IMG/VR virus record: IMGVR_UViG_3300006802_000523
Span: 1 to 24,793 of that record
Origin: a virus
Reading direction: 5' to 3' (one strand)
Length of the DNA stretch: 24,793 bases
The position numbers and the translations under genes are program-made. Positions 1,250-14,949 of the stretch are shown here, in pieces. The notes beneath the pieces were generated by a model. It ran no database searches. It was not told the origin of the DNA and worked only from the letters and a program-made list of their open reading frames with translations. Numbering within the stretch: the stretch's first letter is position 1; each line of letters begins with the position of its first letter.

Positions 1250-1661
1250 TTTTTGCTGCGACAATCTGCTTTAGAACTTCAGTTGATAACTTGCTCACAT
1301 CAATTGCTGACACAGCAACGTCTGCCTTAACGTCAATCTTTTGTGGCGCATTAAAGCCGTGCATCGCGTTAAGCTCTTTAACTGCACTGATTTTGTCTGA
1401 AGGCTTACCTTCTCGATATGCTGCAACGAGTGCTTTAACGCTCATTTCGCGTGTCCAAAGTGCTTTTGATGCAAGCGCTGACTTCAGCTCATCAACTCTT
1501 ACCGAAACCTTACCATCACGCATTAGCTCAGATGCTTTTACATAAACAACACCTTGCTTTGTAGTTGGCTTTACGTTAAAAGCCGATCGATATGCATCTG
1601 CTTGCGTCATGCCGTCAGCAATAGCCTGCGCAAACTTCTCTTGCTTCGGTGTAAGGCTCAT
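1236..1661 (-). CDS. terS: Terminase small subunit (TerS)
   Basis: 141-residue DNA-recognition subunit of the packaging terminase. The N-terminus has the helix-turn-helix layout of the Terminase_2 family: MSLTPKQEKFAQAIADG, then MTQADAYRSAF, then a KASELMRDGKV segment. A helical region (RVDELKSALASKALWTRE) for oligomerisation and a C-terminal tail ending VAAKNDSD follow. The ATG overlaps the stop of the methyltransferase gene by 4 bases (ATGA), and the stop lies inside the start of TerL, so the three genes are translationally coupled. Length and position directly upstream of TerL support the call. It is expected to bind the pac site, which in many headful phages lies in or near this gene; I see no pac motif I can name. 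Confidence 0.92.
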   Translation of the reverse strand: MSLTPKQEKFAQAIADGMTQADAYRSAFNVKPTTKQGVVYVKASELMRDGKVSVRVDELKSALASKALWTREMSVKALVAAYREGKPSDKISAVKELNAMHGFNAPQKIDVKADVAVSAIDVSKLSTEVLKQIVAAKNDSD

Positions 1662-2842
1662 TTTACACCTGCAATTAAATCAACTGCTAAATCGTCAAAA
1701 GATTGTCCTGTTGCCTCTAGTTTTGCTTTTTTTCCTGTAAATTCTTGCCAACGTTTTACAATCACATCGCAGTATTTTTCATCAAGCTCTATACTGTAAT
1801 TAATTCTATTTGTTTTTTCACATGCTATTAACGTCGACCCAGAACCAGCAAATAAATCAATAACAGATTTTGCTTTATATCCGCTTAAAAGCTTAACTAT
1901 TGAATCAATAGGCTTTGATAATCCATGTTCTTCGTTTGTATTTTTTTTTGCCTCAATGACAGAAGGATAATAACCATTTTCAGAAAACGCACCTTTTGCA
2001 TTGTCGCAACTAAAAATAGAATCATCATTGCTTGATTTTGTTAAATAAAAAACGTTTTTATGATGATAATAAGGAACCTTTTTATTCATCATTGATGAAG
2101 GAGTTTTAAAATATAAAATACAATCAAATTTAAAATCCCATCCTGTACTATTTAATACACTTATTGCTTGCTTAAAAGTTGTCATTAAAACAATATTTTT
2201 AACGTCAATGCACTCAATTACATTCAAAAAACCTTTTGTTTCATCGTTGTACATTGGATCTGTAAAGACAAGGTCTATTTTATTGTTTTTAGTTAACATG
2301 CTTACATTATCAATGTTTGTACTATCTCCGCACATTAACCTATGGCTACCAAGTATCCAAATGTCACCATTCTTTGTAACAGATTCTGCTTTCACATTTG
2401 GTATGTCATCATCGTCAATCAATCCTTCCGAAATTTCATTTCCAAACAAACTGTTAATTTCATCATCATCAAATCCAAGCGTACTTATATCGAAATCAAG
2501 GCTTTTTAAATCTTCAATCTCGATTCGCAACATTTCATCATCCCAGCCAGCATTTAGCGCCAATTTGTTATCAGCTATAACGTAAGCTCGGCGCTGGGTC
2601 TCGCTCAGGTGCGACAGCATAATCGTTGGCACTTCCGTTAATTTCAATTTACGAGCAGCCATCACACGGCCGTGACCAGCGATTATGCTTCCATGCTCAT
2701 CAATCAAAACAGGATTGGTGAACCCAAACTCACGAATACTTGCAGCAATTTGCGAAACTTGAGCATCTGAATGAGTACGGCTGTTTCTCGCATAAGGCAG
2801 CAAATCATCAATATTTTTATAAATTATCTTTAAATTGCTCAT
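1658..2842 (-). CDS. ParB-like nuclease domain fused to a DNA adenine/cytosine-N4 methyltransferase
   Basis: 394 residues in two parts. Residues 5-110 match the ParB/sulfiredoxin-like domain (LLPYARNSRTHSD, NPVLIDEHGSIIAGHGRVMA, ADNKLALNAGW). Residues 155-375 are a beta-class amino-methyltransferase, with motif IV at 195-198 and then the AdoMet-binding motif DLFAGSGST at 329-337, followed by IELDEKYCDVIVKRW. This fusion is common just upstream of phage terminases, where it probably modifies phage DNA and protects it from host restriction. Oddity: the usual (D/N/S)PP(Y/F/W) tetrapeptide reads DPMY, so the central Pro is replaced by Met; the section between the motifs (about 200-300) is also rich in Lys, Asn and Ser. 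Activity may be altered. It starts 2 bases after the MazG-like gene and overlaps TerS by 4. Confidence 0.9.
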   Translation of the reverse strand: MSNLKIIYKNIDDLLPYARNSRTHSDAQVSQIAASIREFGFTNPVLIDEHGSIIAGHGRVMAARKLKLTEVPTIMLSHLSETQRRAYVIADNKLALNAGWDDEMLRIEIEDLKSLDFDISTLGFDDDEINSLFGNEISEGLIDDDDIPNVKAESVTKNGDIWILGSHRLMCGDSTNIDNVSMLTKNNKIDLVFTDPMYNDETKGFLNVIECIDVKNIVLMTTFKQAISVLNSTGWDFKFDCILYFKTPSSMMNKKVPYYHHKNVFYLTKSSNDDSIFSCDNAKGAFSENGYYPSVIEAKKNTNEEHGLSKPIDSIVKLLSGYKAKSVIDLFAGSGSTLIACEKTNRINYSIELDEKYCDVIVKRWQEFTGKKAKLEATGQSFDDLAVDLIAGVK

Positions 2843-3370: not shown

Positions 3371-3445
3371 TTAAACGCAGCAAATCTTTGCTTCAGCTGC
3401 ACTCAAAACCTTTTGCGCCAGCTCTACGACTTTTTGATTATTCAT
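3371..3445 (-). pseudogene. 24-residue remnant of a duplicated accessory gene
   Basis: This short frame opens MNNQKVVE, the same eight residues that start the intact gene at 4286-4600, and it follows an identical upstream junction (end of a gene in GKRMDSKDE, overlapping ATG). After the shared start it continues LAQKVLSAAEAK and stops, resembling the C-terminal helix of its paralogues (ALDAAKENGL, ALAAAKEAGL). I read it as what is left after an internal deletion, or a recombination scar of the cassette. It lies within a 49-bp perfect direct repeat (3421-3469). It could still be translated as a leader peptide. Confidence 0.55.
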
Positions 3446-3469
3446 CTTTGCTATCCATCCGTTTACCAA
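3421..3469. repeat. 49-bp direct repeat, copy 1 (copy 2 at 4576-4624)
   Basis: The two copies are identical by eye and start 1155 bp apart. Each spans the end of one gene (coding GKRMDSKDE) and the start of the next (MNNQKVVE). Recombination between them would remove the genes at 3781-3951, 3948-4289 and 4286-4600. Confidence 0.9.
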
Positions 3470-3788
3470 TCTCCGCAGCAGCACGGACGATTGCACGTCT
3501 GGTTGCGGCGTAGGGGTCATCGGTGTATTTCTCAAATGCTGAAGGTGCTTTCCCATCATAAGCACTAATCCCAACACCTGTTGGTAGGTTGAGTCGGACT
3601 AAATCAATACCCAGCTTCACCGCCAACCGCAGCGCATCGCCGTCATTAATAAGCGGGTTCCAATCTTTGTCGAAATAGAATCCACCAGCATGTCGGATTT
3701 TAGACATGCACCCCCATTTCTCAACATAAGCCCAGTCAGACATACCAGCAGCCTTCGCTGCCAGTTCTAACAGTTCACGGTCACTCAT
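3438..3788 (-). CDS. Conserved phage accessory protein (GDALRLAVKLG type), function unknown
   Basis: 116 residues from the ATG at 3788; the longer frame up to 3893 reads through the upstream gene and lacks family-like sequence. Features: MSDRELLELAAKAAG, then DKDWNPLINDGDALRLAVKLGID, and a C-terminal helix RRAIVRAAAEIGKRMDSKDE. The WNPL..DGDALRLAVKL block is familiar from many small, uncharacterised proteins of proteobacterial phages; I know no function for them. The start overlaps the upstream gene by 8 bases and the end overlaps the remnant at 3371. The last residues are shared with the gene at 4593-4895, showing cassette duplication. Confidence 0.75.
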   Translation of the reverse strand: MSDRELLELAAKAAGMSDWAYVEKWGCMSKIRHAGGFYFDKDWNPLINDGDALRLAVKLGIDLVRLNLPTGVGISAYDGKAPSAFEKYTDDPYAATRRAIVRAAAEIGKRMDSKDE

Positions 3789-3951
3789 CACTGCCCCCCG
3801 TCTGCTTACAGTCTTCACTGATGATTCGACCGCACAATTTGCAATCTCGGTGATACTGCCCGTTGTAGATCCACCCACCGCGCCATGCGCCAAGGTGTCC
3901 TGTTTTTTCGCACAACCACCAACCGATGCGCGTGAAAATGGTTTGATTCAT
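3781..3951 (-). CDS. Small CxxC zinc-ribbon-like protein, function unknown
   Basis: 56 residues from the ATG at 3951 (MNQTIFTRIGWWLCEKTGH), overlapping the stop of the upstream gene by 4 bases. It has a Cys-His pair (CEKTGH) followed about 20 residues later by HRDCKLCGR, a plausible zinc ribbon with the aromatic patch GAWRGGWIYNGQYH between. The C-terminus is ISEDCKQTGGSDE. Base composition is more G+C-rich than the flanking operon. Accessory gene of unknown role. Confidence 0.65.
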   Translation of the reverse strand: MNQTIFTRIGWWLCEKTGHLGAWRGGWIYNGQYHRDCKLCGRIISEDCKQTGGSDE

Positions 3952-4289
3952 AGCCCCGCCTCCTTCGCAGCGGCGAGTGCTGCTCGGACTTTGCGACGAG
4001 CTTCTGACCGTCCATAGGCTTCTACCCATCCGGAGCAGTGTTCCAACGCCTCAACCAACTGCCGCACAACAGCGGGGGCGGGGTGTTCCCATAGAGGGAT
4101 GTTTGGGTAGCTTCTTCCAAAAGCGGACACTTGCGGGACTTCATAAAGAGTGGCTCCACCGTCTAGGCTGAACTTTCCCTGCCAGTAACCCACTGGTTCT
4201 TCGCTCACAGCGGATTTCGCCTCCACATTCTCACGCTCACAACCAGAAGGCTTGCAGAAGCCTCCGCATGATGAACATTGCCTACTCAT
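3948..4289 (-). CDS. Accessory phage protein with a Cys-rich N-terminus, paralogue of 4286-4600
   Basis: 113 residues. The N-terminus MSRQCSSCGGFCKPSGCE holds four Cys in 13 residues (CSSC, C, C), then comes EEPVGYWQGKF, a variable middle and WEHPAPAVVRQLVEALEHC, ending in a basic helix ARRKVRAALAAAKEAGL. The EPV...HP.PAVVRQLVEALE core is shared with the gene immediately upstream, and the DNA of that core (4042-4085) matches 4410-4453 with about four differences in 44 bases. This is therefore a duplicated, N-terminally swapped paralogue. Function unknown. The ends overlap both neighbours by 4 bases. Confidence 0.72.
   Translation of the reverse strand: MSRQCSSCGGFCKPSGCERENVEAKSAVSEEPVGYWQGKFSLDGGATLYEVPQVSAFGRSYPNIPLWEHPAPAVVRQLVEALEHCSGWVEAYGRSEARRKVRAALAAAKEAGL
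4042..4085. repeat. 44-bp imperfect direct repeat, copy 1 (copy 2 at 4410-4453)
   Basis: Encodes the PAVVRQLVEALE segment of two neighbouring paralogous genes. Forty of 44 positions agree by eye. It marks a gene duplication or recombination of a shared module. Confidence 0.8.
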
Positions 4290-4600
4290 AGTCCATTCTC
4301 CTTCGCAGCGTCGAGTGCTTCTTTCACCACCCCGACCAGATCGACAGTGCCGGCCTCCTTGCTGCGTGTGAAATGTTGTTCCAGAAACTCAATAGCAGGC
4401 AGCGTCATCTCCAAAGCCTCCACCAACTGCCGCACCACAGCGGGGGTGGGGTGACGAAACACGGGGCCGATCAACTGCCATCGCGGATTGTTTTTTTGGA
4501 ATCCCCACTCAACCTGTTGTGGGTCAACAAAATCAATCAGTCCAGTATCTTCGTGCTGAAACTCAAACGCCACCGGCTCTACGACTTTTTGATTATTCAT
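4286..4600 (-). CDS. Accessory phage protein (MNNQKVVEPVAF), function unknown
   Basis: 104 residues from the ATG at 4600, which overlaps the end of the preceding gene by 8 bases. It runs MNNQKVVEPVAFEFQ, then a polar middle (DFVDPQQVEWGFQKNNPRW) and FRHPTPAVVRQLVEALEMTLPAIEFLEQHF, ending GVVKEALDAAKENGL. Many phages carry proteins that begin with an EPVA(W/F/Y) segment and end with such a helix, none with a known role as far as I know. It is the full-length relative of the remnant at 3371-3445 and of the gene at 3948-4289. Confidence 0.7.
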   Translation of the reverse strand: MNNQKVVEPVAFEFQHEDTGLIDFVDPQQVEWGFQKNNPRWQLIGPVFRHPTPAVVRQLVEALEMTLPAIEFLEQHFTRSKEAGTVDLVGVVKEALDAAKENGL

Positions 4601-4624
4601 CTTTGCTATCCATCCGTTTACCAA
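4576..4624. repeat. 49-bp direct repeat, copy 2
   Basis: Identical to 3421-3469; see that entry. It covers the junction between the gene ending at 4593 and the gene starting at 4600. Confidence 0.9.
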
Positions 4625-4895
4625 CCTCTGCTGCTGCCACCCTTGCATTTAACATGGCGTCTGCTGTTAGATAGGCAAGCCTTGCTACTTCTTTATGCCT
4701 GTCATAAATTTGAGAAGAAGATAGAGCCTGACAATGCGCCTGCATCGCTTTTGCAGCAAAGTAATCCCTGAGCGTCATGCTCTGTTCGTCGCATGTCATC
4801 ACCGCTCCTTTGACTGGGTGATCTTCGATTTTATGAGGCTCGACGACTGTGTGATATTTAACTCCGTTAATTGTGATTGTATTGTTCATCTTCAT
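4593..4895 (-). CDS. Conserved phage accessory protein (MTLRDYFAAKAMQA type), function unknown
   Basis: 100 residues from the ATG at 4895 (MKMNNTITINGVKYH); a second ATG at 4889 is also possible. An AAGGA ribosome-binding sequence lies just upstream of both. The centre holds MTLRDYFAAKAMQAHCQAL and the end holds VARLAYLTADAMLNARVAAAE, a layout I recognise from numerous uncharacterised proteins of gammaproteobacterial phages (an aligned MSLRDYFAA then YxxADAML motif). The C-terminus GKRMDSKDE is the same as in the gene at 3438-3788. Role unknown, probably a non-essential host-takeover or regulatory protein. Confidence 0.72.
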   Translation of the reverse strand: MKMNNTITINGVKYHTVVEPHKIEDHPVKGAVMTCDEQSMTLRDYFAAKAMQAHCQALSSSQIYDRHKEVARLAYLTADAMLNARVAAAEVGKRMDSKDE

Positions 4896-4935
4896 TTTCC
4901 TTTTGTTATATGAGCTTGCGCCCTTTTTTTTGAAT

Positions 4936-5106
4936 TTAACTTTTTTTCTGCGGATAAACCCGCAGAAGCGCACGCCTACCACCTTTTATGGGGCTTCCGC
5001 TGATAATGAAAACGTGTCCATGCAGAGGCGACCCTGCATTACGGTCAATTCTCCAACCCTCGGGGATGATTTCGAATATTTCCCACCATCTATAAGATAG
5101 ATTCAT
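4936..5106 (-). CDS. 56-residue phage protein (AGSPLHGHVFI), function unknown
   Basis: The ATG at 5106 overlaps the upstream stop by 4 bases (ATGA) and the frame runs to a TAA at 4936-4938. The product begins MNLSYRWWEIFEIIPEGWRI and contains DRNAGSPLHGHVFIISG and GGRRALLRVYPQKKS. The GW.ID..AGSPL.GHVFI...SP..G.RRALLRV pattern is one I know from short phage proteins of unknown function, which makes this a real gene although it is short. The last codons include a perfect CTGCGG-N6-CCGCAG inverted repeat. Confidence 0.75.
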   Translation of the reverse strand: MNLSYRWWEIFEIIPEGWRIDRNAGSPLHGHVFIISGSPIKGGRRALLRVYPQKKS

Positions 5107-8788: not shown

Positions 8789-9358
8789 ATGGAAATGTCA
8801 GAATCAATCGTTGATTTATCTGCTGCGCTGGCATCTGCGCAAGCCGAGCTAAACAACCCCGCTTTCGATTCTAAAAACCCGCACTTTAAAAGCTCATACG
8901 CTTCTTTAGCTTCAGTGCGCAATACAGTTGTCCCTGTTCTTGCGAAGCATGGACTAAGCGTTATACAAGACGTTTCAGCGGTTGAAAACGGTGTTGTATG
9001 CGTTCAAATGCTGCTTCACAAATCAGGCCAGTGGATTAGAACGGCTGGCTTAAAAGTCCCATTTGATAAAGCTAATGCACATGGTTACGGATCAGCGACA
9101 ACATACGCTCGCAGATTCAGCCTTATGGCTTTAGTCTGTGTCGTCGGAGACGACGACGATGACGGTAATGCTGTATCTATTCAACAAAACCAAAGAACAG
9201 AAAAAAAAGTCGAGCCAGATTTAGACTGGATCGCAAAGATAGATGAAGCATCTACGTTAGATGCACTTGCTAGTGTTTGGACTACTATGCCGAAACAGCA
9301 GCAAGAAGTTTTAAGAGTATTAAAAGACAAAAAGAAAAAAGAATTAACAGCCGAATAA
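8789..9358 (+). CDS. erf: ERF-family single-strand annealing recombinase
   Basis: 189 residues, ribosome-binding site ACGGAG. The ERF core spans residues 5-130: IVDLSAALASAQAELNNP, KNPHFKSSYASLASVRNTV, LLHKSGQWIR and the signature GYGSATTYARRFSLMALV, followed by an acidic run GDDDDDGNAVS. The C-terminal part (DLDWIAKIDEASTLDALASVW) is a helical tail often found on phage ERF proteins. It anneals complementary single strands during phage recombination or genome circularisation, as P22 Erf does. It is followed by YqaJ exonuclease and SSB, a complete exonuclease-annealase-SSB set. Confidence 0.93.
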   Translation: MEMSESIVDLSAALASAQAELNNPAFDSKNPHFKSSYASLASVRNTVVPVLAKHGLSVIQDVSAVENGVVCVQMLLHKSGQWIRTAGLKVPFDKANAHGYGSATTYARRFSLMALVCVVGDDDDDGNAVSIQQNQRTEKKVEPDLDWIAKIDEASTLDALASVWTTMPKQQQEVLRVLKDKKKKELTAE

Positions 9359-9398
9359 AAAATGTTATTAAAAAAAACTTACAACTGAAAGAATAAAA

Positions 9399-10028
9399 AT
9401 GGACCTCAAAACAATAACTTATGAATATCCACAAAGAAGCGCTGATTGGTTTAACGTTAGGCTTGGATGTGTAACTGGTTCAGGTGTTACAAATGTTTTT
9501 GCTAAAACAAAAACAGGCGAATCAGAAGCAAAGAAAAAATACAAAACAAAATTAATTGTAGAACGCCTTACAAATGAATCGCAAGATAACGATTTTGTAA
9601 GTTCGGCAATGCTGTGGGGAATCGAAAAAGAGGATATGGCTCGCGTAGCATATCAAGAAGAAAACAAAGTTCTTGTTAAACAAGAAGGCTTTATAAAAAT
9701 AGAAAATGAATTTATAGGTTATTCACCAGATGGCCTTGTAAGTGAAAACGGTTTAATAGAAATTAAATGTCCAAGCAGCGCAAAACACTTTGAATATTTG
9801 GATACACAAGAAATACCAAAAGAATATATAAATCAAATGGTTTTAGGAATGATTGTCACAAAAAGAAAATGGTGTGATTTTATTAGCTATGATCCGCGAT
9901 TTCCAAAAAGCATGCAATTATTTGTAAAAAGAATTTTTGCAAAAGATTATGATACAGAAGGATTTTTAAAAACAGTTAGAGAATTTAATAACGAAGTAGA
10001 GCAATCAATTAGAAAACACATTTTTTAA
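9399..10028 (+). CDS. YqaJ-type viral exonuclease (lambda Exo-like)
   Basis: 209 residues. The PD-(D/E)XK fold of the YqaJ family is visible: an N-terminal RSADWFNVRLGCVTGSGV, a conserved Glu in WGIEKEDMA (about residue 76), GYSPDGLV with Asp 111, and LIEIKCP with Glu 121 and Lys 123, followed by the Gln helix IPKEYINQMVLGM. It resects double-stranded ends 5' to 3' to give substrates for the ERF protein just upstream. The leader contains ACAACTGAAAG. Length is usual for the family and all active-site residues are present. Confidence 0.92.
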   Translation: MDLKTITYEYPQRSADWFNVRLGCVTGSGVTNVFAKTKTGESEAKKKYKTKLIVERLTNESQDNDFVSSAMLWGIEKEDMARVAYQEENKVLVKQEGFIKIENEFIGYSPDGLVSENGLIEIKCPSSAKHFEYLDTQEIPKEYINQMVLGMIVTKRKWCDFISYDPRFPKSMQLFVKRIFAKDYDTEGFLKTVREFNNEVEQSIRKHIF

Positions 10029-10042
10029 AAAAGGAACTTAAT

Positions 10043-10417
10043 ATGTTTAGCAATGTTTTTAGAATCGGAAAAGATGCAGTTGTTCGCAGAACACAAAACA
10101 ATGATGCAGTTTGCACGCTTTCTCTGTGCTATACATTTGGATATAAAGACAAGAAAACAACACAATGGATAGAAGGAACAATTTTTGGGAAAACAGCCGA
10201 AGCGTTAGAGCCTTATTTAACAAAAGGCAAACAGATCTATGCGATGCTTGATGATGTATACAACGAGGAATACGAAGGAAAAACAAGGTTAAAAGGAAGA
10301 ATATTAAAAATCACGCTTTTAAGTGATAACAGCGCAGCAAACAGCACAGCAACAAAAGAAGCTCCGCAACGACAAAAACAAATGCAAGACATTGAAGAGG
10401 ATGACGTACCATTTTAA
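10043..10417 (+). CDS. ssb: Single-stranded DNA-binding protein
   Basis: 124 residues of OB-fold sequence: MFSNVFRIGKDAVVR, FGYKDKKTTQWIEGTIFGKTAEAL, YLTKGKQIYAMLDDVYNEEYEGKTRLKGRI. The Ser/Thr/Gln-rich linker ends in the acidic tip EEDDVPF, the conserved docking peptide for host replication and repair proteins. It lies 14 bases after the exonuclease gene and is followed at once by an intrinsic terminator, so erf, exonuclease and ssb form one transcription unit. Confidence 0.93.
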   Translation: MFSNVFRIGKDAVVRRTQNNDAVCTLSLCYTFGYKDKKTTQWIEGTIFGKTAEALEPYLTKGKQIYAMLDDVYNEEYEGKTRLKGRILKITLLSDNSAANSTATKEAPQRQKQMQDIEEDDVPF

Positions 10418-10422
10418 AAAAT

Positions 10423-10444
10423 GGCGGGGGAAACCCTGCCTTTT
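10423..10444 (+). terminator. Intrinsic terminator after ssb
   Basis: GGCGGGG, a GAAA tetraloop and CCCTGCC form a 7-bp stem with one G-T pair, followed directly by TTTT and more T-rich sequence. Placed 6 bases after the ssb stop codon. Confidence 0.85.
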
Positions 10445-10453
10445 AATTATTTC

Positions 10454-10482
10454 TTTACTTTTTAATTAATTTAATTTATAAT
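10454..10482 (+). promoter_or_regulatory. Rightward promoter, TTTACT-17-TATAAT
   Basis: TTTACT at 10454-10459, a 17-base spacer and a consensus TATAAT at 10477-10482, immediately after the ssb terminator. It would restart transcription for the second half of the early operon. The leader AACAACTGAGGA serves as ribosome-binding site for the gene at 10514. Confidence 0.65.
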
Positions 10483-10513
10483 TAATTTACCTTAACAACT
10501 GAGGAAAAAAATA

Positions 10514-10729
10514 ATGGAACAGACTATTTTTGAATACGAAGGCTTAAAGTTCACGGTCGATTATGAGTTCGACCCAGGAGAAAAGCAAACATTTGTGGAC
10601 CCTGGCTGGCCTGCAAATGTTACTATAAATAGCATTTGGATTAATGAAGTTGATATGTACGACATGCTTAAACAAAGCATCATCCAAGAAATCGAGCATA
10701 GGTTATGCTTGACACACATAGATAATTAA
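10514..10729 (+). CDS. Hypothetical phage protein, 71 residues
   Basis: Acidic protein MEQTIFEYEGLKFTVDYEFDP, then EKQTFVDPGWPANVTINSIWI and NEVDMYDMLKQSIIQEIEHRL. The pattern of a beta-rich N-terminus with PG.P..V.I..I.....D(M/L)YD.L and a final helix ending in EIE is one I have seen in small phage proteins encoded near recombination genes; function unknown. Good GAGGA ribosome-binding site behind the 10454 promoter. Confidence 0.65.
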   Translation: MEQTIFEYEGLKFTVDYEFDPGEKQTFVDPGWPANVTINSIWINEVDMYDMLKQSIIQEIEHRLCLTHIDN

Positions 10730-10750
10730 TATTGACGCATCTTTAAATAT

Positions 10751-10768
10751 AGCTGCATTCTTGCAGCT
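10751..10768. repeat. Perfect hairpin AGCTGCA-TTCT-TGCAGCT in a leader
   Basis: Seven-base arms with a 4-base loop, just before the CTGAGGAT ribosome-binding site of the gene at 10787. It lacks a T run of useful length on either strand, so it is more likely an mRNA structure or a protein site than a terminator. Confidence 0.6.
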
Positions 10769-10786
10769 TTAAAAACTGAGGATAAT

Positions 10787-11020
10787 ATGAATAATATTGA
10801 AAATTTAGTAAAAGAATGGCTCAGAACAAAAGCGAAAGAAGAACTATTGAGCGTTCAAAGAAAAGAAATAGAAAGGCAAATAAATGAATCTTTATCCTCT
10901 GGTGAAGAGGTTAACCCATATATTTTAAATTTATTACACAGAGTTTTAAAAATGATAAAAAAAACCGGCTCAAGGCCGGAGAAAGCAACTAAGGAGAATA
11001 AACATGAAAATGCAAATTAA
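10787..11020 (+). CDS. Small coiled-coil-like early protein
   Basis: 77 residues: MNNIENLVKEWLRTKAKEEL, LSVQRKEIERQINESLSS, then a basic tail (KKTGSRPEKATKENKHENAN). The first 45 residues are amphipathic helix with alternating acidic and basic residues. The tail is read through an intrinsic terminator-like hairpin facing the opposite strand and through the ribosome-binding site of the next peptide, so the true functional part may be the N-terminal helix. No family recognised. Confidence 0.55.
   Translation: MNNIENLVKEWLRTKAKEELLSVQRKEIERQINESLSSGEEVNPYILNLLHRVLKMIKKTGSRPEKATKENKHENAN
10957..10979 (-). terminator. Intrinsic terminator facing leftward, antisense to the early operon
   Basis: Read on the minus strand: CCGGC, loop CTTGA, GCCGG, then eight T residues. 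On the plus strand the run is A before the stem, so it works only for leftward transcripts. No leftward gene lies nearby; the nearest leftward operon upstream of it ends at the holin (14021). Confidence 0.65.
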
Positions 11021-11051
11021 TAATAACAAAGTTATTCATAAAACACAATGA
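11004..11051 (+). CDS. 15-residue leader peptide coupled to a lipoprotein gene
   Basis: MKMQINNNKVIHKTQ, preceded by a strong AAGGAG (10991-10996) at a good distance of 7 bases. Its TGA overlaps the ATG of the next gene (ATGA at 11048). The following lipoprotein gene has no strong ribosome-binding site of its own, so the peptide probably serves to deliver ribosomes to it. Confidence 0.5.
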   Translation: MKMQINNNKVIHKTQ

Positions 11052-11353
11052 AAAAAATAATTATTTTTGTTCTTTTGCTAATCAATGGATGCTCAACAAT
11101 AATAAATGGAACGACACAAGAAATAAAAATTAATGATGGTTGCAATGTCGTTAATAATGAAAATGCTTCTCAAATTAAAGAAGGTTTTATAACTGTCAAA
11201 AGGAGTAAAAAAGATTTAAAAATAATATGCAATGATGTAGAAAAAGTTTACAAAGCATCATTAACAAAAGAGGCTTTAACTTCAATTACTTTTATAGATT
11301 TCGGATTGATTGATTTTTTAACAAACGCGGCATGGGGATATGATGTTGATTAA
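11048..11353 (+). CDS. Small lipoprotein, possible superinfection-exclusion or envelope moron
   Basis: 101 residues with a clear type II signal: MKKIIIFVLLLINGCST, the lipid-modified Cys being residue 15. The mature part starts CSTIINGTTQEIKI, like many bacterial lipoproteins that open with C(A/S)(T/S)I..GT.Q.(V/I).I, and ends with a hydrophobic segment FIDFGLIDFLTNAAWGYDVD. The product is expected to be anchored in the envelope. Phage lipoproteins in early or lysogenic regions often alter the host surface or block infection; that role is inferred. It overlaps the next lipoprotein gene by 14 bases. Confidence 0.7.
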   Translation: MKKIIIFVLLLINGCSTIINGTTQEIKINDGCNVVNNENASQIKEGFITVKRSKKDLKIICNDVEKVYKASLTKEALTSITFIDFGLIDFLTNAAWGYDVD

Positions 11354-11645
11354 TTTTATTTTAGTTTGCTGTGCGCTTGCAGGATGTGCAGTAGTTCCTG
11401 ACGATTCATATTATACGTGGTACAAACAAGGAGAAGAGCTAAAAGATATAAATGTATATAAAGTTGATAAAGAGTTTATAAAAACAATTTGCAGACATAA
11501 TCAGTATGTAATTGCATGTACTTTAATGAACTTCAATGAAGGAATTTGCAACATTTATACTACATACGACACAGATAAAATCCCGAAAAAAATACTTGAT
11601 CATGAAATGAAACATTGCAACGGGATGAATCATTATGAACATTAA
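11340..11645 (+). CDS. Small lipoprotein with a metzincin-type zinc motif
   Basis: 101 residues. Lipobox ALAGC with Cys 16 after a short hydrophobic signal. Close to the C-terminus the sequence LDHEMKHCNGMNHYEH contains HExxHxxGxxH (His 88, Glu 89, His 92, Gly 95, His 98), the exact zinc-binding consensus of metzincin peptidases. Four other Cys occur in the mature part (51, 60, 70, 93), suggesting disulfides in the periplasm. The protein is much shorter than known metzincins, so it may be a minimal peptidase-like domain or a zinc-binding protein. Two tandem ATGs (11340, 11343) are possible starts. The end overlaps the next gene by 11 bases. Confidence 0.7.
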   Translation: MMLINFILVCCALAGCAVVPDDSYYTWYKQGEELKDINVYKVDKEFIKTICRHNQYVIACTLMNFNEGICNIYTTYDTDKIPKKILDHEMKHCNGMNHYEH

Positions 11646-12033
11646 TAAAATTAAACCTGCAACAAGATTTATTTTGAATGAATTACAAGAAAAACATACT
11701 GTTTTTGAATTAGAGAAAAAAGTTAATATTAATTTACAAGCTACAAGGCAAGTTGTTTTTAGACTAATTGAAGATGGATTTGTTTATGTGTGTGAGTCAA
11801 AATTAGATGGAATTAAAAAAAGACAAATAAAATATTACAAAACAACAGAAAAAGGAAAAAAGTTTTTAAAAACAATAGAAGAAACCTTTGGTGAAGAGTT
11901 AAAAAAACCGAAGGAAAAGAAAAATTTTCTCTTTGGTCATCACATATCTTTAGGAATAACAAAAGCATTTATAAAAACACTTAAAGAGAAAGCCACGCCG
12001 TGGGACGCACTTTTAAAGCAAGGAGCAAAATAA
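11635..12033 (+). CDS. Winged-helix DNA-binding protein
   Basis: 132 residues. Residues 1-85 have the layout of a MarR/DUF-type winged helix: TRFILNELQEKHTVFELEKK, NINLQATRQVVFRLIEDGFVYV (recognition helix and wing start), then KRQIKYYKTTEKGKKFLKT, a typical wing followed by a helix. The C-terminal part (FLFGHHISLGITKAFIKTLKEKATPWDALLKQGAK) is helical. Its place in the later half of the early operon fits a regulator of phage gene expression, possibly the late switch, or the binder of the shared operator. Target unknown. Confidence 0.65.
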   Translation: MNINKIKPATRFILNELQEKHTVFELEKKVNINLQATRQVVFRLIEDGFVYVCESKLDGIKKRQIKYYKTTEKGKKFLKTIEETFGEELKKPKEKKNFLFGHHISLGITKAFIKTLKEKATPWDALLKQGAK

Positions 12034-12034
12034 A

Positions 12035-12268
12035 ATGATTAAATCAGCAATGTTAAATACAAAATATTTATTTATTCCAAGTACAAATAATAGACCGTAT
12101 TTATTAAATGAAAAAACAAATACAAATATAAAGGACTCTATAAAGAAACAAGAAAATATTGAGCAAAAATTAGATGGAAAAAACTGGGCTAGAACCATTT
12201 TAAGCAATGAAAGCGCACATAATAAAATAGCCGTTATGTGGGCTAAAGGAATATTAAAAAATGACTGA
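12035..12268 (+). CDS. Hypothetical early protein, 77 residues
   Basis: MIKSAMLNTKYLFIPSTNNR, then lysine- and asparagine-rich sequence (NTNIKDSIKKQENIEQK) and a C-terminal helix (WARTILSNESAHNKIAVMWAKGIL). No motif recognised. It starts one base after the winged-helix gene and overlaps the VRR-NUC gene by 8 bases, so it is probably translationally coupled to both. Confidence 0.6.
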   Translation: MIKSAMLNTKYLFIPSTNNRPYLLNEKTNTNIKDSIKKQENIEQKLDGKNWARTILSNESAHNKIAVMWAKGILKND

Positions 12269-12614
12269 AAAAATTATTATTTCAGAACATCAAGAGCAAA
12301 AAATATTTGTATCGTGGTTTGAGCTTGCATATCCAGATAAATTAATATTTGCAATACCAAACGGTGGGAAAAGAAACATTGTTACAGCTGCAAAATTAAA
12401 AGAAGAAGGCGTTAAGGCTGGAATTCCTGATTTGTTTATACCTGAACATAATGTTTGGATTGAAATGAAAAGGAAATCAAAAGCAAGTCTATCAGAATCT
12501 CAAAAAACAATGATAGAAAAATTAAAAAATTGCGGTCACGTTGTTTTAGTGTGCTACGGTTGTGATGACGCAATATTGCAAGTAACAAATTATTTAAAAA
12601 CAAAGACCAAATAA
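12261..12614 (+). CDS. VRR-NUC domain nuclease
   Basis: 117 residues that consist of just a VRR-NUC domain (PD-(D/E)XK fold): SEHQEQKIFVSWFEL with an early Glu, IPNGGKRNIVTAAKLKEEGVKAG, GIPDLFIP with Asp 57, VWIEMKRK with Glu 68 and Lys 70, then LSESQKTMIEKLKNCGHVVLVCYG. Stand-alone phage VRR-NUC proteins are thought to act as structure-specific nucleases, for example in resolving recombination or replication branches. All catalytic residues are present. Its position after the recombination genes supports a DNA-processing role. Confidence 0.9.
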   Translation: MTEKIIISEHQEQKIFVSWFELAYPDKLIFAIPNGGKRNIVTAAKLKEEGVKAGIPDLFIPEHNVWIEMKRKSKASLSESQKTMIEKLKNCGHVVLVCYGCDDAILQVTNYLKTKTK

Positions 12615-12615
12615 A

Positions 12616-12804
12616 ATGAAAAAAATAATTGATTTTTTAAGAAGTATTTATGTGCTGCCAAGCGCAAGAGTTTTAGCAATTAAAGAGCTTGAAGATTCGA
12701 AAAGAAAGCTTTTGGAAATGGAGTCAAATTTTGATTACGCGCAAAGTATGTGTAATTACTACAAAGCAAAAATAAACAGACTTGAAAAATATGTGTTAAA
12801 ATAA
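12616..12804 (+). CDS. Small coiled-coil protein, function unknown
   Basis: 62 residues: MKKIIDFLRSIYVLPSARVL then a helix (IKELEDSKRKLLEMESNFDYAQ) and YYKAKINRLEKYVLK. Amphipathic, probably a short coiled coil. It starts one base after the VRR-NUC stop codon. No known family. Confidence 0.55.
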   Translation: MKKIIDFLRSIYVLPSARVLAIKELEDSKRKLLEMESNFDYAQSMCNYYKAKINRLEKYVLK

Positions 12805-12831
12805 TTAACAATTAACAACGGAGCAAGAAAA

Positions 12832-13509
12832 ATGAGTTTAATTCAAAATCTTTTTTTTACAGAAGCTAAAAAACCAAAATATTTGGTTATAAAAGATAAG
12901 CCCTTACGCTCTCCTCATGGCATTTTAAAAAAATGCAATCATTGTAATGATGGCCATCTTGAAATCTTTTATTTTAAATTTGTTCTAAGTAGAACAAAAA
13001 TAAATAATTTTGGCGCATTCACATTCTTAGGTTGCGATAAATGCAACACCTACAAAATCCACACAGGAAAGTATAAAGAATTAAACGTCTATGACGTAAT
13101 GCAAACAAAACAATCTGTTAATGAAAAAGAATATAAAGAGTTTTTAAGTCTATATGAAAACTCTAACAATATTGTTAAGTTTCTCGATGATTTCCCGCAG
13201 CGAAGATTCTCAAAAGACCTGACCTTAGCCGGTATAAGAAAAATGCTCAATCATGAGCAAATTTACTCTATGGTTGTTAATGAAATTCAATTTTATAGGC
13301 CAGATATGAAATCGTGCTGTAACAATAATTGCAACCAAGGCAGGAATTGCAAATTAAAACATGATTTAAATTGTTTTGCAAAACTTACATTAAACATATT
13401 AATGCTTGCATTTTTAACAGTGTTTTTATCAATTACATATACATACGCTGAAGACATAACAGGTTACATCAGCAACGTATTAGAAAGTATTGTATTTAAT
13501 TCTTTTTAA
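12832..13509 (+). CDS. Cys-rich protein with a C-terminal membrane segment, function unknown
   Basis: 225 residues with an AACGGAG ribosome-binding site. Residues about 37-80 contain two CxxC pairs (KKCNHCNDGH and LGCDKCNTYKIHTGKY), a plausible zinc ribbon. The middle is helical (EYKEFLSLYENSNNIVKFLDD). Around residue 163 lies a Cys cluster (SCCNNNCNQGRNC), followed by a hydrophobic segment of about 20 residues (LTLNILMLAFLTVFLSITYTY) and a short tail. The topology suggests a cytoplasmic zinc domain anchored to the inner membrane. I do not recognise the family. It lies just before the heptapeptide-repeat gene. Confidence 0.65.
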   Translation: MSLIQNLFFTEAKKPKYLVIKDKPLRSPHGILKKCNHCNDGHLEIFYFKFVLSRTKINNFGAFTFLGCDKCNTYKIHTGKYKELNVYDVMQTKQSVNEKEYKEFLSLYENSNNIVKFLDDFPQRRFSKDLTLAGIRKMLNHEQIYSMVVNEIQFYRPDMKSCCNNNCNQGRNCKLKHDLNCFAKLTLNILMLAFLTVFLSITYTYAEDITGYISNVLESIVFNSF

Positions 13510-13534: not shown

Positions 13535-14002
13535 ATGAAAAAACTTACAGGGATTCATAAAGGTATAACAGGAGATTTTTCTAATATATATGGAGATGTA
13601 ACAAACCTTTATGGTGATGTCAGTAATATACATTGTGACGTTTCTAACATTACAGGAAATTTAATCAATATGAATGTCACTAATATTCTTGGAGACGTTT
13701 CTAATATTAGAGGAGATGTATCAGGCATTACAGGATTTGTATCTAACATTAAGGGAGATGTTTCTAATATTAGAGGTGATATTTCTTTCATTTATGGTGA
13801 TGTCACTAATATTAAAGGCACTGTTATTTATCTTTGGGGTGATGTCTCTAATATTAAGGGAGATGTTTCTAATATCAGAGGTGACGCTTCTAACATTGAA
13901 GGAGATGTATCTGGCATTAAAGGATTTGTATCTGATATCGAAGGAGATGTAACAAATCTTTATGGAGATGTAACAAACATCAAATGTCATGTTGATATGT
14001 AA
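13535..14002 (+). CDS. Heptapeptide-repeat protein (GDVSNIx), predicted beta-solenoid
   Basis: 155 residues from the ATG at 13535; the frame extends upstream to 13490 but only inside the preceding gene. Apart from the first dozen residues the protein is a string of about 20 seven-residue units of consensus G-D-V-(S/T)-N/G-I-x (for example GDVSNIR, GDVSGIK, GFVSNIK, GDVTNLY), ending KCHVDM. The DNA shows the same 21-base period. Alternating Val/Ile and Gly-Asp turns suggest a right-handed beta-solenoid, three units per coil. I recall similar repeat proteins annotated only as hypothetical in other phage genomes. Function unknown; last gene of the rightward operon, converging on the holin gene. 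Confidence 0.75.
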   Translation: MKKLTGIHKGITGDFSNIYGDVTNLYGDVSNIHCDVSNITGNLINMNVTNILGDVSNIRGDVSGITGFVSNIKGDVSNIRGDISFIYGDVTNIKGTVIYLWGDVSNIKGDVSNIRGDASNIEGDVSGIKGFVSDIEGDVTNLYGDVTNIKCHVDM

Positions 14003-14020: not shown

Positions 14021-14431
14021 TTAGCTTTTTTTAACTTTCTCATATGTTCTAAGTCCAGCTAATCCGAGTAAAGGTAGTAACAAAGCCAAAATTGATTCAA
14101 CATCAATCTGCGGAAACGTTACTATCTTGTTTGTTAATATTAGAAAAATCGACGGTGCGATAGGCTGAAAAATATAATTGTAAAAAAGACCAAATGCACA
14201 TATCCAGCCACATGACGATCTCCATCCTGATTTATAAAAACTTTCACTAGTCGCGTCTATTTTGTTTATTTCTGTTTGATTATTTGATAGCTGAACAGCT
14301 GCTTCTAATTGTTTTGCTTCGCTTTCTTGAGTTAATTTTAAAATCTCAATTTGTGCTTGTGATTTCTTTTCGTTATCTGGAATTAATTTATCAATAATTC
14401 CAAAAACGCCATTTAACAATAAAGGACTCAT
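14021..14431 (-). CDS. Holin, GTA/3TM type
   Basis: 136 residues, last gene of the late operon. A polar N-terminal helix (EKKSQAQIEILKLTQESEAKQLEAAVQL) precedes YKSGWRSSCGWICAFGLFYNYI, the typical start of the hydrophobic part of 3TM holins (GWRP..GW.C). Two or three membrane segments follow up to LLPLLGLAGLRTYEKVKKS. It opens the inner membrane for the GH108 endolysin, whose gene overlaps its start by 4 bases. The family also occurs in gene transfer agents. Confidence 0.88.
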   Translation of the reverse strand: MSPLLLNGVFGIIDKLIPDNEKKSQAQIEILKLTQESEAKQLEAAVQLSNNQTEINKIDATSESFYKSGWRSSCGWICAFGLFYNYIFQPIAPSIFLILTNKIVTFPQIDVESILALLLPLLGLAGLRTYEKVKKS

Positions 14432-14949
14432 TGATCACCCATTAAATTTTTTGCTACTCTGACTGCCCAACCTTTTCCGTAAACACCCCACGAGTTTAAT
14501 TGCGTGAGAAACATTAGGCGATAACCGTTAAACATCATTGCAAGTTTTAAGCCGTTTGCGCTATTTAAAGCTGCAATAGTCTTGTTACCTATGATTCCAT
14601 CAGCGTCAACACCAAGCGCTTTCTGAAGCCAAATAACAGCGCCTTGACGTGTTTTACATCCTGGGCCACTATTTACCAGTGCATCAAAGTAGCTAAAACG
14701 AGCATCAGAAGGAACTTTCTCACAATAAAACTTTAACCAATAATCGCGTTTATATATTTCTTTTGCTTGGTCAAGTGTGATGTTTTTTATATCAATGTTT
14801 GGATATGCTGCGGCACTTATTCCATATTTCGTGCCATTTAATTTACCAATGCCGACTTTTCCGCTTGTCCAGTTTCCTGTGTCTTTTTGGTCATCTGTAA
14901 AGCCGCCTTCATGCCCGACAACCAGTTTAAAAGCCTCATCGAAATTCAT
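14428..14949 (-). CDS. Endolysin, glycoside hydrolase family 108 with peptidoglycan-binding domain
   Basis: 173 residues. N-terminal GH108 domain: MNFDEAFKLVVGHEGGF with the catalytic Glu 14 in the EGG(Y/F) motif, then GKVGIGKLNGTKYGISAAAYP and DQAKEIYKRDYW. The C-terminal part, WLQKALGVDADGIIGNKTIAAL, is a PG_binding_3 repeat. It cleaves the glycan strands of peptidoglycan at the end of infection. No signal peptide is present, so it relies on the holin encoded directly downstream in the operon. It overlaps both neighbours by 4 bases. Confidence 0.93.
   Translation of the reverse strand: MNFDEAFKLVVGHEGGFTDDQKDTGNWTSGKVGIGKLNGTKYGISAAAYPNIDIKNITLDQAKEIYKRDYWLKFYCEKVPSDARFSYFDALVNSGPGCKTRQGAVIWLQKALGVDADGIIGNKTIAALNSANGLKLAMMFNGYRLMFLTQLNSWGVYGKGWAVRVAKNLMGDQ

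Follow-up and report, generated by a model that had tools for sequence, protein, structure and literature searches.

The GDVSNI heptapeptide repeats of the phage protein reported here appear, from the sequences compared, to define a family not previously described, with members in both phages and Patescibacteria. The protein is encoded in a virus record of 24,793 bases, referred to below as the window. Our best reading, held tentatively, is of a cytoplasmic, early-expressed, rod-shaped repeat protein that would act as a binder in a replication/recombination setting.

The repeat gene occupies positions 13535..14002 on the plus strand, from an ATG at 13535 to a stop codon ending at 14002, and encodes a protein of 155 aa (MKKLTGIHKGITGDFSNIYGDVTNLYGDVSNI...GDVTNIKCHVDM). 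Two close relatives, L005 and L006, carry the gene at the identical position, and the start at 13535 is supported because both retain that ATG and the N-terminus. The protein consists of 19 heptads and a single five-residue unit, flanked by a short N-cap and a short tail. Its N-terminal cap MKKLTGIHKGIT (13535..13570) fits, together with the next unit, the N-cap pattern '[IL]H..I.GDF' of the Patescibacteria orthologues, which is common to the window protein and the Patescibacteria group but not to the C-capped phage group. The repeat array (13571..13984), which begins after the LTGIHKGI of the N-cap, follows the consensus G-[DN]-V-[ST]-[NG]-[IL]-x. It includes the lone five-residue unit VTNIL, which lacks G-D, and some units that depart from the core (CDVSNIT, GNLINMN, GFVSNIK and GTVIYLW). 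The last two units, 'GDVTNLY GDVTNIK' (13943..13984), are followed by the tail CHVDM and the stop codon (13985..14002), without the CEIT-type C-cap that many phage relatives carry.

An earlier sequence-only reading had described about 20 consecutive heptapeptides with a 21-base DNA period, in agreement with these counts. TRF reported a 21-bp array of 13.9 copies at 13680-13971 as well as a 105-bp (five-unit) super-period, and the residue identity of the protein at lag 7 was 0.50, whereas none of 10,000 shuffles exceeded 0.20 at any lag of 2-14. Codon third positions differ from unit to unit in the array, so the repeat is conserved at the protein level more than at the DNA level. Long open frames also run antisense (13609-13990, minus strand) and out of frame (13674-13952, plus strand) over the repeat, and these are by-products of the 21-bp period.

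Length changes among close phage relatives occur in steps of this period. The L005 copy, also 155 aa long, has 98% DNA identity to that of the window. The L006 copy encodes 190 aa and differs from the window by one in-frame 105-bp insertion of exactly five units near the 3' end, at the site of the two C-terminal units; the added units are unlike one another, which speaks against an artefact of assembly alone. In a second comparison set (L016, L018 and L020), the repeat of L018 exceeds that of L016 by 168 and 105 bp while the remaining DNA is identical, and assembly error is possible in this set, tandem repeats being a known source of error in unit number (PMC6868369). Every indel in the compared sets is a multiple of 21. 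The rapid length change foreseen in the sequence-only reading is thus borne out in 21-bp steps, and phages probably alter the length of the predicted rod quickly by gaining and losing 21-bp units.

Within the window, the repeat gene closes the same-strand run of early genes and abuts the holin/endolysin block. The upstream early genes listed here span 8789..13509 on the plus strand and encode an Erf-like annealing protein (8789-9358), a RecE/YqaJ-type exonuclease (9399-10028), an SSB (10043-10417), a VRR-NUC nuclease (12261-12614) and a protein of no assigned function with a hydrophobic C-terminal stretch (12832-13509). A gap of 18 bases separates the repeat gene from the facing, convergent lysis genes on the minus strand (together 14021..14949), namely a holin (14021-14431) and an endolysin (14428-14949). 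This order agrees with the earlier placement of the gene at the end of the early operon, apart from the tail genes; in L006, too, the repeat gene comes last in an early run, which has genes for DNA polymerase, VRR-NUC and helicase. From gene order only, we infer that the repeat gene is expressed early. Predicted promoters near the gene were no more numerous than expected by chance, and none of the three terminator-like sites found lies downstream of it.

Three further observations concern other genes. The two small genes preceding the repeat gene (12616-13509) are separate in the window and in L005, and are fused into a frame of 259 aa in L006 (5229-6008). Several small overlapping frames on the minus strand (3371-4982) have the segments 'VVRQLVEALE' and 'RLVNGWIAKMNNQKVVE' in common, as if duplicated, and two of them match no PHROG. 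A ParB-like domain fused to a DNA methyltransferase (1658-2842, minus strand) adjoins the terminase genes.

A scan with a three-unit DNA pattern returned 28 stretches in IMG/VR and 15 in GTDB genomes, to which C-cap patterns added more, and 92 distinct translations were collected, counting fragments as well as a few antisense or coiled-coil translations. The family consensus, taken from 1,676 regular units chosen for Gly at start and end, reads G, D/N, V, S/T, N/G, I/L, x. Phage members number in the dozens; many have a conserved C-cap (GNLDDCEITEEERKKGIDIKDLI), and several tandem paralogues are often present. In many phage members the C-cap has the form G[DN][LV]DxCEITxEERxxGIxIxDLI, and the N-cap is often 'YYYKDGEKIxGVHxxIxGD'. 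The CEIT-type C-cap occurs in 37 of the 79 members with complete ends and marks a subgroup rather than the entire family; it is absent from the window protein, from L005 and L006, and from the Patescibacteria orthologues. In the window protein, units of the family pattern G-[DN]-V-[ST]-x-[IL]-x follow one another in register as a long array, and the N-cap has the form G-x-H-x-x-I-x-G-D (LTGIHKGITGDF).

Several phages carry two to four tandem copies. The most extensive expansion lies on G008:C56 (48,728 bases; L078, L079, L098 and L080), where 17 tandem heptapeptide-repeat genes on the plus strand cover 16.8 kb, about 35% of the contig. Although binned as Nitrospira japonica, this is a phage contig with terminase, portal, major head protein and endolysin genes, and its structural genes lie on the minus strand, opposite to the repeat genes. 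Two other loci are of separate interest. On the L007 contig (180,374 bases), the gene after a doubly capped repeat gene encodes a protein that was read, from its Cys-rich start, as a possible radical-SAM enzyme and that matches no PHROG at E 1e-6. The podovirus L003 (MW202691.1, 7947-8348) has a Cys version of the repeat (GDCSSLRGDCSSLY), located after an annotated single-stranded DNA-binding protein.

The family is not named in Pfam, NCBIfam or PHROGs, and the literature searched yielded no paper with the motif strings in this sense or with a heptapeptide repeat together with phage or solenoid. The earlier statement that comparable phage proteins are uncharacterised is supported as to names and papers, and such proteins prove to form a family that is large and extends to cells. 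The Pfam and NCBIfam matches that did appear (DUF1664, Baculo_PEP_C, KOW2_Spt5, MSG, RiPP_TigB and others) cover short stretches and reflect either composition or the 3-4 pattern of hydrophobic residues; although KOW2_Spt5, MSG and (in L006) Baculo_PEP_C pass the Pfam cut-offs, nothing else supports them. PHROG 19577, 'minor head protein' (E 3e-16), was read as a convergent repeat in a structural protein, as were tblastn matches in Bacillus, Aeromonas and Lactobacillus. A match of the C-cap to Caulobacter phage CcrSC was attributed to chance, the CcrSC protein being without repeats.

Phage copies of the repeat gene adjoin replication/recombination genes in many but not all loci. Their neighbours are Sak4/SSB/helicase/RecE in L016, ExoVIII/helicase in L055, RusA/exonuclease in L060 and Erf/SSB in L074; some members have other surroundings, L010 for instance being near a peptidase gene. 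In a tally of 150 neighbours, the leading entries were helicases, NinG, RecE, Sak4, NinB and primosomal proteins, and some were terminases or methyltransferases. All this neighbourhood evidence is guilt by association, with no matched control.

In Patescibacteria, a single-copy chromosomal version was found in 3 of 287 genomes across the phylum (the query genome counted), and in 6 of 12 and 10 of 16 genomes of two families, whose membership is that assigned by the search tool. These proteins have the same unit and N-cap as the window protein and likewise 20 or more units, but they are encoded by single-copy genes amid housekeeping genes and are near-constant in length, the extracted open frames measuring 186-202 aa. 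Their alignment is almost without gaps, L046 excepted; Gly is near-invariant and accounts for the most conserved positions. Between orthologue pairs, pS is about 0.63-0.91, with synonymous sites near saturation, and pN is 0.17-0.39, which indicates purifying selection on the protein. The neighbours are ordinary genes, among them those read from their sequences as TypA, phosphoketolase and acetate kinase; chromosomal synteny is shared within a family, but no functional partner was found among them.

The heptads are likely to fold as a beta-solenoid, judging from structure models. For the window protein (43 family rows), AF2 gave a pLDDT of 64 and a pTM of 0.40, the strands being confined to the C-terminal half, from residue 79 on. 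For L033 (32 capped rows), the pLDDT was 67.7 (70-84 in the mid-part) and the pTM 0.51, and the model contains fourteen 5-residue strands spaced 7 residues apart plus a small helical C-cap. Foldseek against the PDB returned weak beta-solenoid matches only, none reaching E 0.001, and its single match in BFVD (E 2e-4, TM 0.14) was judged not credible. On re-scoring of the L033 model with VIA-align, in which repeats score high by arrangement alone, Ag43b came top (Z 10.9, rmsd 2.8 over 129 residues) and the synthetic beta1 solenoid scored Z 9.5. The best fold matches of this model are right-handed parallel beta-helix proteins (Ag43, tailspikes, the synthetic beta1 solenoid); the natural ones are large, extracellular or virion-borne and without a uniform seven-residue unit, whereas the repeat protein is a small one encoded in the early block, and no export signal is evident in it. 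A two- or three-unit structural super-period that would set the size of the coil was sought in the family units and not found. RTX calcium-binding repeats differ in being nonapeptides (GGxGxDxUx), whereas the period here is 7 and the consensus is another.

The hydrophobic positions V3 and I6 lie three residues apart, and a single flat strand would not bury both on one side. The repeat has the 3-4 hydrophobic spacing of phage coiled-coil stalks such as the gp26 needle and fibritin, and V3/I6 could be the a/d core of a trimeric helical stalk that forms a virion or adsorption part. Sequence matches to the gp26 needle, SlaB, fibritin and sigma-1, to PHROG needle and minor-head families, and numerous tblastn matches among phage structural proteins point the same way. 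We nevertheless consider this coiled coil, the main rival fold, unlikely. Gly makes up about 16%, compared with 3-7% in gp26/SlaB/fibritin-type coiled coils, and the helix propensity value of 0.57 denotes a lower propensity than the 0.44-0.53 of coiled coils. Proline, odd-length units and inserted loops occur within the arrays, AF2 predicts strands, and the best-conserved positions of the cellular orthologues are Gly. Coiled-coil stalks are located in the virion, whereas the repeat gene sits in the early block away from the tail genes and has single-copy orthologues in cells. The beta-solenoid put forward in the sequence-only reading gains moderate support from the predicted strands, tempered by a pLDDT of 64-68 and by a 3-4 spacing that a coiled coil could share.

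In a beta-solenoid, the roughly 20 heptads would stack into a rod with one short strand per heptad and a turn at G-D; V3 and I6 would be the hydrophobic positions, and D/N, S/T and N/G would form regular ladders on the surface. Such a rod could offer a repetitive binding surface for a host protein, a phage protein or nucleic acid, and gain or loss of 21-bp units would shift its length fast in phages. A binding role is plausible, though short of probable; binding would take place in the DNA replication/recombination context in which the gene would be expressed, as with pentapeptide-repeat proteins. The latter (MfpA, Qnr, AlbG) resemble the repeat-protein model in their short units, polar ladders and beta-solenoid rod. 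They have a five-residue unit with another consensus, and the unit here is seven residues, with mostly mild charge. Because tandem five-residue A(D/N)LXX units were looked for and not found (lag-5 autocorrelation of 0.03 in the window protein, no Pfam pentapeptide match), the protein is not a member of that family; nor was any significant sequence or fold match to it obtained. As for a four-sided right-handed beta-helix, a beta-solenoid model was obtained at modest confidence. By analogy, the heptapeptide-repeat protein may work like pentapeptide-repeat proteins as an early cytoplasmic rod-shaped binder, a combined proposal that we advance with some reserve.

A wider proposal, which we hold to be possible though not likely, is that an undescribed family of heptapeptide-repeat beta-solenoid proteins, whose chromosomal gene stays near-constant in length in some Patescibacteria families, was recruited by phages, where it would have become an early, slipping and fast-changing binder or decoy against host proteins, multiplying into tandem arrays that can take up a third of a phage contig. 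A counter-defence or decoy protein as such, with unit gain and loss varying its surface fast and tandem paralogues broadening its reach, is somewhat less probable: the presence of multiple paralogues in a phage (as many as 17 genes on a single contig), near-identical genomes differing in repeat length and the early gene position favour it, but no defence gene is obvious among the neighbours of the cellular family.

MfpA is a GyrB-binding DNA mimic (PMC10886550), and an acidic rod imitating duplex DNA could similarly, like Ocr or MfpA, block host gyrase, a restriction enzyme or a RecBCD-type enzyme. Asp recurs every seven residues, the window protein has a pI of 4.5 and a net charge of -8 in 155 aa (-5 per 100 aa), the gene lies amid recombination genes, and there are weak fold matches to MfpA, AlbG and EfsQnr. 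These MfpA-type matches are, however, far from significance (E 0.1-0.4), Asp occupies position 2 in no more than 60% of units (Asn in 24%), and Arg or Lys is frequent at position 7. Family median net charge is -3.6 per 100 aa, ranging from clearly negative up to +3.9, so that acidity is mild and some members are basic. DNA mimicry, raised in the sequence-only reading, finds no support as a family trait, and we regard it as improbable. A low-constraint gene expanded by neutral slippage, with little protein function, would suit the highly variable unit number and the mere 9 changes between the window and L005, which make dN/dS from that pair weak evidence, but is very improbable given caps conserved across diverse phages, the lack of frameshifts among the arrays compared and cellular orthologues of near-constant length under purifying selection.

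If the predicted fold holds, the cytoplasmic binder proposed here would belong to a class of repeats distinguished by unit length and caps, unnamed in the family libraries checked and spanning phages and cells. The 17 tandem copies on G008:C56 suggest that strong selection can act on the repeat protein, and the stable length in cells set against the fast unit turnover in phages offers a direct way to ask what role rod length may play.
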